Origin: a virus | Strand: one strand, 5' to 3' | DNA length: 20,348 bases | IMG/VR virus record: IMGVR_UViG_3300037264_000305 | Location: 1-20,348 of that record | Shown here: positions 4,394-11,034 of the stretch, in pieces | Layout: each line of letters opens with the position of its first letter | Numbering within the stretch: the stretch's first letter is position 1 | Made by a program: the position numbers and the translations under genes | The notes under the pieces: generated by a model | Databases searched by the model: none | What the model saw: the letters and a program-made list of their open reading frames with translations, nothing else | What the model was told of the DNA's origin: nothing

Positions 4394-4590
4394 GCGACGA
4401 AATCAGCATGGAGTACGACGCCGCGAATAAATCGGCGGTGCTAAAGTTCAAGGGCGGGCGCACGCTGCGACTCGCGAACGTGACCGAGGATCAAGCCAAG
4501 CAATTCGTGGCCCGGCACGCGCCGGAGTTTCAGCGCCGAGAGTGCATTCTGCACACGGTCGGCGGCATCGAGACTCGGGAGGTTGCATGA
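4390..4590 (+). CDS. Small unknown protein between portal and protease
   Basis: A 66-aa protein I cannot assign. It is acidic at the N-terminus, then reads as two short beta strands (SAVLKFKGGRTLRLANV) and a helix (TEDQAKQFVARHAPEF), ending with a single Cys-containing strand. No signal peptide or membrane segment is seen. It starts with ATGA overlapping the portal stop, with a GAGGG eight bases upstream, and it ends with an ATGA overlap onto the protease-capsid gene, so it is embedded in the head operon and very likely real. Position suggests a head-assembly accessory role, which is inference only. Confidence 0.7.
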   Translation: MSDEISMEYDAANKSAVLKFKGGRTLRLANVTEDQAKQFVARHAPEFQRRECILHTVGGIETREVA

Positions 4591-6380
4591 GCGACCGAAC
4601 GCGGACGCTGTCGTTCTCGTCCGAAAGCCCGGTCGAGCGCTGGTTCGGCACGGAGATCCTCGACCACACGGCAGGCGCCGCACGCATGGACTTCATGGCT
4701 AGTGGTCGCGCGCCGCTGCTACTCGATCACAACCCCGGTCGCGTTGTGGGCGTCATTGAGACTGCCAGCATCGGCCGCGACAAGATCGGCCACGCCGCAG
4801 CGCGCTTCGGCCGTGGTAGCGTTGCGGTCGATACGTTGCGCGACGTCGACGACGGCATCCTGCAAAACACGTCCGTCGGATACCGCGTCCACGGCATGAT
4901 TCTCGAAGAGGCCCGCGACGAAGGCGACGTGTATCGAGTCGACGATTGGGAGCCGCTTGAGGCGAGTTTGGTGGGCATCCCGGCCGACCCAACTGTCGGG
5001 GTAGGCCGGAGCCGCTTTGCAAGTGGCGAAAATGCGGATACAGTACGGGTGACCGAGTCGGCGCAAGGATTGCGCACTACCACCGCCAGGGAGGCGATGA
5101 TCATGGATGAGACACCGGAACAGAAAGCCGCTCGCGAGACTGCAACGGCAGCCGGAGTCGCAACCCGCGCAGCCGAACAAGTCCACGGCGCGGACGTCGA
5201 CAGGGAGCGTGTCACCGGCATCGAAAACCTCTGCGGAGCGTGCAACATCGACGCCGGCTTACAGTCTCGGTGGATCACTGCCGGCACCTCGCTGACCGAG
5301 GTCGCCAAGCAAATCACGGCGATTCAAAAGCAACGAGCCGAGAAGTCCAAGCCGCTCACAGAGCTTGGCTTGGGCGACAAGGAAGTCCGTCGTTACTCCC
5401 TAGCCCGCGCCATCAAGGCGTGCGCGGATCAGAACTGGAGCGACGCCGGCTTCGAGGCGGAAATCTCCGCAGCGATCGGCCAGAAGGTCGGGCGCGTATC
5501 GGACAAAATGCGGTTTTTCGTACCGCACGAAGTCCAAAAGCGCGACCTGACAGTCGGCACGGCGAGCGCCGGCGGCTACTTGGTTGCGACGAACAACCAG
5601 AGCTTCATCGAGATACTGCGCAACTCGTCCGTCGCGATCCGCATGGGCGTGATGGAAATGCCCGGACTGGTCGGCAGCATCACGGTGCCCAAGCAGACCG
5701 CGGCGGCCACGAACTACTGGCTATCGACAGAAGCCACGGCCATCACCGAGAGTCAGCAGACGTTTGCGCAGATGGCGCTGTCGCCGAAAACCGCAGGCGG
5801 GTATGTCGAAATCAGCCGTCAATTGCTGTTGCAATCCTCGCCCGGTGCGGAACAGATCGTGCAGAACGACCTCGCGCAAGTGGTCGGTCTCGCGGTCGAT
5901 CTTGCAGTGCTCAACGGCTCCGGCGCATCTGGCCAGCCGACCGGCATCATCAACACGGCCGGCATCGGCGGGGTCACTGGCACGTCGATCACTTACACCG
6001 GAATCGTGGAATTCCAGACCGACACGGCGGCCGGTAACGCGCTGTTCGATGCGGCTGGCTACGTCACGACCCCGGCGGTCGCTGGCTTGCTCAAGCAGCG
6101 GGTGAAGTTCACGTCGACCGCGTCGCCGATCTGGGAGGGCAAACTGCTCGACGGAACGGTCGACGGGTATCGCGCGATGGCTTCGAACCAAGTCCCGAGC
6201 GCCAATATCCTGTTCGGCGACTTCGGCAAGGTCGTGCTCGCGAGCTGGGGCGTGCTCGAGGTCGAGGTCAATCCGTACGCGAACTTTGCTGCCGGCATCG
6301 TCGGCGTTCGGGCCATGTACTCGATCGACGTCGGTGTGCGCTACGCCGCGGCGTTCTCGCTGGCGACATCGGTCACCTAA
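4587..6380 (+). CDS. Prohead protease / HK97-fold major capsid protein fusion
   Basis: A 597-aa polyprotein. Residues ~1-145 are an HK97-type prohead maturation protease (S78/U35-like). The likely catalytic His is H48 in LLLDHNPGRVVG and the likely Ser is S96 in NTSVGYR, followed by the typical WEPLEASLVGIPADPT block (121-136). Residues ~173-300 form a charged helical region equivalent to the scaffolding delta domain. Residues ~310-597 are the HK97-fold capsid protein: SAGGYLV, the IEILRNSSVAIRMGVMEMPG arm, YWLSTEATAITESQQTF, and NPYANFAAGIVGVRAMYSID near the end. The start at 4587 is chosen because it makes an ATGA overlap with the previous gene; a frame extension to 4542 lacks support. Protease and capsid are usually separate genes of ~200 and ~400 aa, so this is a genuine fusion with a shortened linker. 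An internal start at 5103 could give capsid alone. Confidence 0.95.
   Translation: MSDRTRTLSFSSESPVERWFGTEILDHTAGAARMDFMASGRAPLLLDHNPGRVVGVIETASIGRDKIGHAAARFGRGSVAVDTLRDVDDGILQNTSVGYRVHGMILEEARDEGDVYRVDDWEPLEASLVGIPADPTVGVGRSRFASGENADTVRVTESAQGLRTTTAREAMIMDETPEQKAARETATAAGVATRAAEQVHGADVDRERVTGIENLCGACNIDAGLQSRWITAGTSLTEVAKQITAIQKQRAEKSKPLTELGLGDKEVRRYSLARAIKACADQNWSDAGFEAEISAAIGQKVGRVSDKMRFFVPHEVQKRDLTVGTASAGGYLVATNNQSFIEILRNSSVAIRMGVMEMPGLVGSITVPKQTAAATNYWLSTEATAITESQQTFAQMALSPKTAGGYVEISRQLLLQSSPGAEQIVQNDLAQVVGLAVDLAVLNGSGASGQPTGIINTAGIGGVTGTSITYTGIVEFQTDTAAGNALFDAAGYVTTPAVAGLLKQRVKFTSTASPIWEGKLLDGTVDGYRAMASNQVPSANILFGDFGKVVLASWGVLEVEVNPYANFAAGIVGVRAMYSIDVGVRYAAAFSLATSVT
5088..5105 (+). promoter_or_regulatory. 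Internal ribosome binding site and start within the protease-capsid fusion
   Basis: AGGGAGG at 5088-5094 lies eight bases before ATG 5103, with another in-frame ATG at 5097. Initiation at 5103 would give a 425-aa protein beginning MDETPEQKAARE, a typical N-terminus for an HK97 capsid precursor with its delta domain. The site falls exactly at the protease/capsid border. It would let the phage make capsid in large excess over protease from one frame. This is sequence-visible but its use is inferred. Confidence 0.65.
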
Positions 6381-8201: not shown

Positions 8202-8214
8202 GAGATAACCAATG
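8200..8214 (+). promoter_or_regulatory. Strong ribosome binding site for the tail tube gene
   Basis: AGGAGA at 8200-8205 overlaps the previous TAG stop and lies six bases before ATG 8212. It resembles the block before ATG 17210 (TAGGAGAGCAACCAATG versus TAGGAGATAACCAATG here), so both may be strong initiation sites. Confidence 0.6.
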
Positions 8215-8634
8215 GCGAATCGACTAGGCCACGAATACCGACTTTACGTTGACAACGGTTCCGGCACCTACACGGAGGTCGCGGGGCAGACGGACTGCAC
8301 GATCAACCGGCCGCAGGAACTGATCGACGTCACGGCCAAAAGCGACACGCTGAAAATCCGCGTACCTGGGCGGCCGGACCTGACGATCAACGTCAGCGGC
8401 AACGTGCGGCTGCCGGACACCAACGGACTCACGAGGCTCTACACGGTCATGCTCGCGCAGACTCCGGTCAACGTGCAGGTGCGCTATACGCCGTTCAGCG
8501 CTTCGGAACTTGTGTACGCCGGATCGGTGTATGTGTCGAACAACGACCGCGGCATGGTCGATCAGCAAGCGGCCACGTATTCTTTCCAGCTCACCGCGGC
8601 CGCGGCTGCTACGACCGACACGCTCGGTGCCTAG
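8212..8634 (+). CDS. Major tail tube protein
   Basis: A 140-aa protein whose hexameric rings should stack into the tail tube. It shows the pattern of Phage_tail_2-type tube proteins: an opening strand HEYRLYVDNGSGTYTEVAGQ, TDCTINRPQELIDVTAKSD (the conserved insert with the N-x-x-x-x-DVT-x-K motif), a central strand TINVSGNVRLPD, a helix GLTRLYTVMLAQ, the loop VRYTPFSASELVYAG, and a C-terminal Ala/Thr-rich strand. Length matches small siphoviral and gene-transfer-agent tube proteins. It is followed with no gap by the assembly chaperone in the same reading frame, as is typical of tube-chaperone-tape measure order. The strong ribosome binding site agrees with a high-copy component. Confidence 0.82.
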   Translation: MANRLGHEYRLYVDNGSGTYTEVAGQTDCTINRPQELIDVTAKSDTLKIRVPGRPDLTINVSGNVRLPDTNGLTRLYTVMLAQTPVNVQVRYTPFSASELVYAGSVYVSNNDRGMVDQQAATYSFQLTAAAAATTDTLGA

Positions 8635-9030
8635 TTGGCCGAGTACACGATCAGCGCCGAACGCGGCGAGGTTCCGATCACGATCGAAGGCGTCGTGTAT
8701 CCGATGCGTCCCAGTGGCGCAGCTCAGATGGCGATTGAGGACCAGCTAGGGACGACGATCACCGAGCTTTGGTTCCGCATGGCCGCTCTGTGGAAGCGGT
8801 CGAGCGGCGAGCCAGCCGACGGCGCAGCTGGGCTCACGCTCAAGCAGATGGCCGTTGTAGTGACGGAGTGCATAAAAGCCGCCGGCCGTGACCGTCAGGA
8901 CAAAGACTTGCAGGCATTCAAAGTCGATCGCATTGCCGACCTGATTGCCGATAATCGCATGGGCTACAACGAACCTCTCGCGACCCTACTTGGCGGGATG
9001 CTCACGAAGGACGACGAAAAAAAAGCGTAA
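8635..9030 (+). CDS. Tail assembly chaperone, gpG-like (GTA gp10-type)
   Basis: A 131-aa protein that probably coats the tape measure before tube polymerisation. It opens with a short beta hairpin (SAERGEVPITIEGVVYPMRP), then helices (GAAQMAIEDQLGTTITELWF; LTLKQMAVVVTECIKAAGRD; DRIADLIADNRMGYNEPLATLL). This resembles Phage_TAC_11/GTA gp10 proteins. Initiation is probably at TTG 8635, immediately after the tail tube TAG stop and in its frame, so reinitiation or low-level readthrough is plausible; no ATG fits the N-terminus. The 3' end is GAA AAA AAA GCG TAA, containing the heptamer A AAA AAA. A -1 slip there extends the protein by 47 residues to a 177-aa fusion, as in lambda G-GT. Confidence 0.8.
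   Translation: MAEYTISAERGEVPITIEGVVYPMRPSGAAQMAIEDQLGTTITELWFRMAALWKRSSGEPADGAAGLTLKQMAVVVTECIKAAGRDRQDKDLQAFKVDRIADLIADNRMGYNEPLATLLGGMLTKDDEKKA
9018..9024 (+). promoter_or_regulatory. -1 programmed ribosomal frameshift site (A AAA AAA)
   Basis: In the chaperone frame the codons are GAA (9016) AAA (9019) AAA (9022) GCG (9025) TAA (9028). The final A of GAA plus two AAA codons form the canonical X-XXY-YYZ heptamer, three bases before the zero-frame stop codon is exposed. After a -1 slip, reading resumes AGC GTA ACC from 9024 and stays open to TGA 9165-9167. Only a weak hairpin is visible downstream. Confidence 0.8.
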
Positions 9031-9167
9031 CCCGGTTCATGACCGCGGCCCTCGGTGGGCAGTTGTGCCACGCGCTCCATTGGACCCCGCAACAGTATTG
9101 GGAATGCACGTCCCGTGAGATACTAGCCATAGCGGAGGCGGCGGCAGCACCCAATGGCAAGGCTTGA
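9024..9167 (+). CDS. Tail assembly chaperone frameshift extension (gpT-like, Phage_TAC_6-type)
   Basis: The -1 frame encodes 47 further residues, SVTRFMTAALGGQLCHALHW then TPQQYWECTSREILAIAEAA, and ends at a TGA that overlaps the tape measure start by 14 bases. The pattern LGxLCxxLHWTPQQYWECTxxEILAI matches small tail chaperones of the DUF2376/Phage_TAC_6 type, where an L-x-W-x-P-x-x-F/Y-W-x-x-T-x-x-E-L signature follows a membrane-like helix. It would bind tape measure. An independent 42-aa product from ATG 9039 is conceivable but has no ribosome binding site, which favours production by frameshifting as a minor fusion. Confidence 0.75.
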   Translation, partial: SVTRFMTAALGGQLCHALHWTPQQYWECTSREILAIAEAAAAPNGKA

Positions 9168-11034
9168 AGATCTAGAGTTTCGTATCACCGCCAACATGGG
9201 CGAGCTTACGACCGCGCTCAACAGCGGATCGGCTCAGGTGAAGCGATTCGCGGATCGCACGGCCAACGACTTCTCACGCTTCGGCCGGGGCGTAGGCATT
9301 GGGCTCGACGCACTGCGCTCCGCGCTAGCGGCGTTCGGCATCGCTCTAGGCGCGAGGTCAATCCTCAATTTCGCGCGCAACGCGATCGAGACCGCGGACG
9401 CTATCGGCGAGACCGCCAAGGCCGCTGGCCTCGGTGCGGAGCGGTTCCAGCGACTGCAATTCGTATTCGAGCAGAACGGCGTCGAGGCAGAGAGTTTCGG
9501 TTTAGCGATGCGCACGCTGAACGTGCGCCTAGGACAGTTTCAAACGACCGGAGCCGGGCCAGCGGCTGAGGCGCTCAAGGATCTGGGTCTGGCGCAGGAC
9601 GTAGCGAACGGCAAGATCCGCACAGCCGACGACCTGATGACGGCTCTGATAAGGAAGTTCGGCCAGGTCGAGGGTACGGCGAAGGCCGCCGCGCTTGGCG
9701 CCGCTCTGTTCGGCAGGGGCGTTGGCGTGGAGATGGTTCCGGCGTTGTTGCGCGGAGCCGATGCGATGGAGTCGGCTGCCGCTGCCGCTAAGGGAATCTT
9801 CACTGACGACCAGGTGCGCGCGGCCGACGAGATCAACGACAAATTCAACGAGCTGTCCCAGACTATCGGCGTGACGTTTAAGGGCGCAGTTCTCGACGCG
9901 CTTGAGGGCTGGCGGCAGTTCTTTGGCCCGACCGAAGTCGAGGCAGCCAAGAAACGCATGGGCCAACTGAACACTCTGATTCAGGAAAATAATGCGGAGA
10001 TCGAGCGGATTGGGCGGAGCACGCCGCGATTCTTCGGGGGCTTGTTTGCGGCTCTCGGGCACGCGGAGATAGACCATCGCACTGAGCAGGTGGCCAAGTA
10101 CACCAAGGAGCTTGATGCTCTCTGGGAAGTCGTCAAGAGGGCCGCCGGAATCGACAACACGCGCCCGACAGGCGCCGAACTTCTTGACGGCGATACAGCC
10201 GCATCCAAAGGGCAGAAGCACTCGCCGGAGCTGCGAGCAGTCATCTCACAGCTCGAAATGGCTGAGAAGCTCACAGAGGCAATGGCGACCGACTTCGAGC
10301 GGCAGGCCGAAGCGATGCGCGAGGCAAAGTTCTTGCTTGACGATCAGCGAATAACGCTGGAGACCTACAACCGCCTACGCGACTCCTTCCTCAAGCCGAT
10401 CTTAGTTGACGCCCGTCGCATGGAAGATCCCGCCGTCGCTCGCCGCACCAAAGAACTAGCCGACGCAGCCGAGGAAGCCAAGCGCAAGTCCGAGCAGTTC
10501 GGCATCGCGCTCGCTTCGGCGTTCGAGTCTCGTGGTATCGAGGCGTTGATGAACGGCGACATCCGCGCCGGCATTCGCGGGTTCGCGCAGGACTTAGCAG
10601 AACTGGTGATCCGCATCGCTGTCTTGCAGCCGTTGGCAGAGCGACTTGCCGCGACGTTCTCGAACATGGGAAGCGGTAGCAAGGGCGGCGTCCTCGCCTC
10701 GCTGGCCGGGATGTTTGGCGGTGGTGGTGGCGGCGGCGGTGGTGATCCTCTAGCCGGCATCGAGACGTTCGGCAGCGGTGGACCAATGAGCGCCGGGCAG
10801 ATGGGAATTGTCGGCGACCGCGGTCCTGAGCTGTGGGTGCCAAACGTCGCCGGACGAATCCTGACCGGCTCGCAGGCGCGCGGCATGGGCGGCGGCACGA
10901 CGGTCGTGCAGAACTTCTACACGCAAGCCGGGTTACCTCCGCAGTGGGAAGTGCAGCTAGCAGGGGTCGCCAGTCTCGCAGCCGGCGCCGCGCTCGATGC
11001 GGTCAATAGTCGCGGGCCTGGTGGGCGTCGATGA
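9154..11034 (+). CDS. Tail tape measure protein
   Basis: A 626-aa protein setting tail length and probably passing into the host envelope during DNA ejection. The N-terminal half is helical: coiled-coil start (LEDLEFRITANMGELTTALN), a hydrophobic/Ala-rich stretch ~53-75 (LRSALAAFGIALGARSILNF), then GETAKAAGLGAERFQRLQFV and LKDLGLAQDVANG with repeated helices. A long coiled region spans ~270-500. The C-terminus is flexible and Gly rich: nine Gly at 522-530, then the tape-measure signature GIVGDRGPELWVP (551-563) and VQNFYTQAG. By the usual ~1.5 angstrom per residue rule this implies a tail near 90 nm, so it is a short to medium siphoviral tail. It follows the chaperones and precedes the distal tail gene, the standard position. 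Confidence 0.93.
   Translation: MARLEDLEFRITANMGELTTALNSGSAQVKRFADRTANDFSRFGRGVGIGLDALRSALAAFGIALGARSILNFARNAIETADAIGETAKAAGLGAERFQRLQFVFEQNGVEAESFGLAMRTLNVRLGQFQTTGAGPAAEALKDLGLAQDVANGKIRTADDLMTALIRKFGQVEGTAKAAALGAALFGRGVGVEMVPALLRGADAMESAAAAAKGIFTDDQVRAADEINDKFNELSQTIGVTFKGAVLDALEGWRQFFGPTEVEAAKKRMGQLNTLIQENNAEIERIGRSTPRFFGGLFAALGHAEIDHRTEQVAKYTKELDALWEVVKRAAGIDNTRPTGAELLDGDTAASKGQKHSPELRAVISQLEMAEKLTEAMATDFERQAEAMREAKFLLDDQRITLETYNRLRDSFLKPILVDARRMEDPAVARRTKELADAAEEAKRKSEQFGIALASAFESRGIEALMNGDIRAGIRGFAQDLAELVIRIAVLQPLAERLAATFSNMGSGSKGGVLASLAGMFGGGGGGGGGDPLAGIETFGSGGPMSAGQMGIVGDRGPELWVPNVAGRILTGSQARGMGGGTTVVQNFYTQAGLPPQWEVQLAGVASLAAGAALDAVNSRGPGGRR
10717..10743 (+). repeat. (GGN)9 polyglycine tract in the tape measure gene
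   Basis: Nine consecutive GGT/GGC codons encode Gly 522-530 of the tape measure protein. This is a low-complexity, slippage-prone run that probably forms a flexible linker before the C-terminal domain; copy number could vary between isolates in steps of three bases without breaking the frame. Confidence 0.8.

Follow-up and report, generated by a model that had tools for sequence, protein, structure and literature searches.

A tail-chaperone gene of the lambda G/GT type with a predicted programmed -1 frameshift on an A-only slippery run in an IMG/VR virus fragment

Do two overlapping reading frames lying between the major tail protein and tape measure genes of a virus form one frameshifted tail-chaperone gene, two separately started genes, or an incidental arrangement? 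This question is raised by a 20,348-base IMG/VR virus fragment of 64% GC, the whole of which was analysed and is referred to here as the window. Profile searches identified in it a siphophage-like head and tail module comprising terminase, portal, protease/capsid, tail terminator, major tail protein, chaperone, tape measure, and distal tail protein genes. One member of this module, the ORF at 4542-6380, has matches to prohead protease (Peptidase_S78) as well as to phage capsid families and represents a protease-capsid fusion. The locus under study, which like all window features described below lies on the + strand, has the order major tail protein, TAC_11, TAC_6, tape measure. Its flanks are the major tail protein gene (8212..8634; PF06199, E 3.4e-7; phrog_1407 major tail protein, E 3.6e-16) and the tape measure gene (9154..11034; phrog_10574, E 8.7e-31; PF10145, E 5.5e-8). 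A preliminary description had proposed that a programmed -1 frameshift joins the two chaperone frames, and this proposal is supported by the anatomy, conservation, and homologies of the locus. Judged from its sequence, the region 8635-9167 is very probably one lambda G/GT-type tail-chaperone gene expressed with such a frameshift.

The upstream frame encodes a short, gpG-like chaperone of 131 aa (8635..9030), delineated by its ORF, a profile match, and a fold model. It starts at a TTG directly after the stop codon of the major tail protein gene. Taken alone, the window protein matches Phage_TAC_11 (PF11836) with E 9.6e-4 and 19.6 bits, below the Pfam curated cut-off of 27.8; each of the 11 sequences in the family alignment matches it as well, with E values up to 0.01 and a best value of 1.6e-9. 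By sequence homology, the short product is a distant relative of PF11836 Phage_TAC_11. Its fold model, built from an alignment that left out one row originating from a public phage record, is confident (pLDDT 91.6). The best fold matches of this model in a viral library have a probability of ~1 with E values of only ~2e-3, and several of them are annotated as tail assembly chaperone or tail tube protein. Sequence and fold searches of the PDB found no relative, and PHROGs offered no useful family for either the 0 or the -1 frame.

The 3' end of this frame, at 9016-9030, reads GAA AAA AAA GCG TAA, with the TAA at 9028, exactly as first described. It carries the slippery heptamer A_AAA_AAA in the 0-frame phase (9018..9024), embedded in a run of eight A (9017-9024) and separated from the 0-frame stop by one sense codon. 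Such a run is out of keeping with the composition of the window: one A8 is observed against 0.04 expected from shuffles, and it is the sole A or T run of at least six bases in the window. Codon usage gives a similar picture, as the main ORFs of the window contain 46 AAA and 101 AAG lysine codons, and no other Lys-Lys pair in these ORFs is encoded as AAA AAA.

A slip of one base back on this heptamer would lead into a -1 extension of gpT-like, Phage_TAC_6 type, consisting of 47 codons followed by TGA (9024..9167) and identified by its translation and a profile match. The translation from 9024 is SVTRFMTAALGGQLCHALHWTPQQYWECTSREILAIAEAAAAPNGKA (47 aa), and the TGA at 9165-9167 lies 14 bases inside the tape-measure ORF, which starts at 9154; the length, family type, and end point originally given for the extension are all correct. 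A comparison with Phage_TAC_6 (PF09550), which the preliminary description had called for together with one against TAC_11, gave E 1.5e-4 and 22.6 bits, below the curated cut-off of 23.4. All 11 of the 11 aligned family members match this family (best E 3.3e-7), and a Sphingomonas relative (L105) scores above the PF09550 cut-off. The conserved W..P..FW..T..E core of TAC_6 is present in the window extension as HWTPQQYWECTSRE, and the extension shares 43% identity over 37 aa with that of a further relative, L004.

The behaviour of the extension between close relatives points in the same direction. The locus used for this comparison is the closest relative, L003, whose short product is 80% identical to that of the window and in which the A8 run, its phase, and the -1 extension are all kept. 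Within 9039-9153, a region where only one frame is coding, the two sequences differ at 6, 8, and 15 sites in -1-frame codon positions 1, 2, and 3, respectively. These differences make 13 codons non-synonymous, compared with 18.4 +/- 1.9 when they are placed at random, and only 24 of 5000 simulations produced 13 or fewer. In this sequence comparison of the window with L003, the -1 extension is under purifying selection. An incidental origin, in which A run and open frame coincide by chance and the extension is left untranslated, deserves mention because an open frame of 47 codons would be unsurprising at 64% GC. It is nevertheless refuted by the TAC_6 homology, the purifying selection, and the conservation across the 70 loci described below, and can be given hardly any credence.

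Conservation was assessed in 70 distinct usable loci gathered from three scans of viral collections, a genome scan, and a single phage record; this number overstates the independent cases because many of them are closely related. A DNA search of the phage collection gave no match to the locus, a protein search returned unannotated records only, and of the prokaryotic genome scans the first yielded none and the second two loci. Relative to TAC_11, the frame of the TAC_6 motif is -1 in 70 of 70 loci. A phased slippery heptamer, counted as X_XXY_YYZ or G_GGG_GA(A/G), occurs no more than 75 nt from the 0-frame stop in 69 of them, and the remaining one, L060, has it at 138 nt. For comparison, four upstream control stretches of the same length contain a phased heptamer in 1-3 of 70 loci, and heptamers near the stop in the other two phases occur in 12 and 8 of 70. 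Within the motif set, G_GGG_GAA had been published previously (PMC10885494), and G_GGG_GAG was entered after it had been sighted in these loci. One candidate exception to the frame rule, L104, was rejected: its 0-frame is interrupted upstream, and downstream of the interruption its frames stand in the -1 relation.

The first slip site per locus is GGGGGAA in 36 cases, GGGGGAG in 17, GGGAAAN in 7, and an A run in 10. The A-run group consists of the window, L003, L007-L012, L037, and L039, with sites of the form A_AAA_AA(A/G); a phased run of A7-A9 is kept in 10 of its 10 members, and none of the loci of the nine relatives contains an A or T run of at least seven bases besides the slip run. The preliminary description had foreseen that an interrupted -1 frame or a lost A run among homologues could overturn its proposal. 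This was examined and the proposal stood: all nine of these relatives retain both the A run and an uninterrupted -1 frame, and in more distant loci the -1 relation persists alongside other slip sites. In the tree built from the fused proteins, all ten A-run loci lie to one side of a branch with modest to weak support (72), as expected for a swap of slip site with the frame kept, and GGGAAAN sites appear in several separate places. By sequence, the slip site turns over across the family under a constant -1 direction.

Several loci add detail to the range of sites. Every complete member of L014-L033 has G_GGG_GAG in place of the published G_GGG_GAA (36 nt before the stop in L014), and in these loci the 0-frame stop overlaps a -1-frame ATG as TGATG or TAATG. 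A more distant tape-measure relative, L005, carries a phased G_GGA_AAC at 2631-2637, 36 nt before its 0-frame stop, followed by a longer -1 extension. In the alphaproteobacterial loci L108, L109, L111, and L115, the heptamer C_CCT_TT(C/T) lies in the 0-frame phase 12-15 nt before the 0-frame stop, within a conserved Pro-Phe-(x)-Trp stretch of TAC_11/TAC_6 loci. In three of these four loci no -1-frame start precedes the domain core, and L108 has only a distant GTG; C_CCT_TT(C/T) is, on this sequence pattern, a possible further slip-site class.

The constancy of the -1 relation within the 70 loci is informative because this relation is not universal outside them. In wider alphaproteobacterial loci TAC_6 is sometimes separately started, even in frame 0 or +1 (L112, L117, L123), and in L110, L113, and L116 it has overlapping starts. 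These six sequences suggest that the frameshift has been lost or replaced in some lineages. They also lend substance to the reading that the downstream frame of the window is a separate 42-aa T gene, translated by reinitiation at ATG 9039 after the stop at 9028, with no fusion made. The preliminary description had recognised no start codon with a ribosome binding site in the -1 frame; it overlooked this ATG (9039..9041), which lies 8 bases after the 0-frame stop and recurs in L003, although it was right that ribosome-binding sequence is missing, as the 20 bases upstream contain nothing Shine-Dalgarno-like. Reinitiation is a real rival in principle because of the shared ATG, the TGATG or TAATG overlaps of stop and -1-frame start in many relatives, and the separately started alphaproteobacterial TAC_6. 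The overlapping ATG, however, corresponds in most members to the conserved Leu-Met of the T domain, and an ATG near the junction is missing from 16 of 70 loci. In 8 of 70, ATG, GTG, and TTG are all missing, and separate initiation therefore cannot explain the family. L007, one of the nearest relatives, has no -1-frame ATG, GTG, or TTG near the junction, and L006 lacks a usable ATG; in L011 the 0-frame stop precedes the ATG by 17 bases, yet the -1 residues before that ATG (NYRR) match those of relatives. Reinitiation would also leave unexplained both the phased heptamers found in essentially every locus and the unique A8 run. As the sole source of the T domain it is very improbable; as an addition alongside frameshifting, reinitiation at ATG 9039 is possible but unsupported.

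If the frameshift reading is preferred, the slip itself could occur on the ribosome or in the RNA polymerase. Runs of more than seven A serve transcriptional realignment (PMC3711429), and the A8 of the window and the A9 of several relatives fall within the length range so used (PMC3711429), which would allow the fusion to arise mainly from transcripts carrying an extra A. Against polymerase slippage as the main source, the run at this place is no longer than A7 in L009, L010, and L012, and the bulk of the family carries G_GGG_GA(A/G) or G_GGA_AAN, fitting tandem tRNA slippage; the 0-frame phase of the A run is also kept, which slippage in the transcript does not require. With these three members limited to A7 and G-rich sites in most of the family, ribosomal slippage is the common denominator, and a mainly transcriptional origin is improbable. 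Frameshifting of 10% is reported for an A_AAA_AAA cassette in that paper's test system, and of 7% for an HK97-like tail chaperone (PMC3711429). In E. coli, A_AAA_AAA is less slip-prone than A_AAA_AAG (PMC5009743). The preliminary description had expected the fusion to be scarce given the nearby stop; this reasoning does not hold, since the ratio of products is set by the efficiency of slippage rather than by the distance from slip to stop. The sequence AAGGA (9007..9011), 6 bases before the heptamer, is a Shine-Dalgarno-like candidate stimulator. It also precedes the slip run in L003, by 9 bases, and is absent from the other A-run relatives. RNA folding downstream of the slip site is no better than in shuffles (z 0.3 to 1.3), and no stimulator is claimed here.

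A close model for the gene is lambda G/GT. In both, two overlapping frames lie between the major tail protein and tape measure genes, a phased X_XXY_YYZ heptamer sits near the 0-frame stop, and a short 0-frame product is accompanied by a -1 fusion, which is predicted in the window; here the -1 frame is open from the slip site and the arrangement is kept in homologues. The differences concern the slip site, which is G_GGA_AAG in lambda and A_AAA_AAA, one sense codon before the stop, in the window, and the protein families, which in the window are TAC_11 and TAC_6. The closest named GT in the fold library is that of N15, a weak match (E 0.26). The GTA-type pair (PF11836 'GTA-gp10' and PF09550) shares with the window both families, in the same order, before the tape measure gene; unlike the window, several alphaproteobacterial TAC_6 have their own start, and the -1 frame is not obligatory for them. 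Among the papers searched, none mentions gene transfer agents together with the Pfam names of the Phage_TAC families. The 'fivetwo' G_GGG_GAA sites of actinobacteriophage chaperones (PMC10885494) act in the same direction and in the same gene as proposed here; this is the commonest site in the wider family (36/70 loci), whereas the group of the window has A_AAA_AA(A/G).

In lambda the G:GT ratio is ~30:1 (PMC5009743). In the window, most ribosomes would read through to TAA 9028 and produce the 131-aa short form, and a minority would slip back one base on A_AAA_AAA (9018-9024), yielding a fusion of 177 aa that ends in the TAC_6 domain. By analogy with lambda, the tape measure protein, the presumed binding partner of the gpG-like domain, would be coated by the short form. 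The fused T domain would recruit the major tail protein, its own presumed partner, and polymerisation of the tube would then start. A more elaborate scheme holds that the A-run group exchanged a G-rich for an A-only site, makes its fusion by ribosomal and transcriptional slippage together, and in the window and L003 additionally releases a free T from ATG 9039. This scheme is unlikely; if true, the window and L003 would make three products (fusion, short form, and free T) compared with the two of lambda.

The locus is a new example of a known mechanism and not a new mechanism. With it, the conserved tail frameshift gains a large, frame-consistent set of TAC_11/TAC_6 chaperone genes, among which the slip site varies (A_AAA_AAA, G_GGG_GAA, G_GGG_GAG, G_GGA_AAN) under a constant -1 direction. 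For phage annotation, both frames here should be merged into one frameshifted gene, a gene that ORF callers would miss because its -1 part has no proper start.
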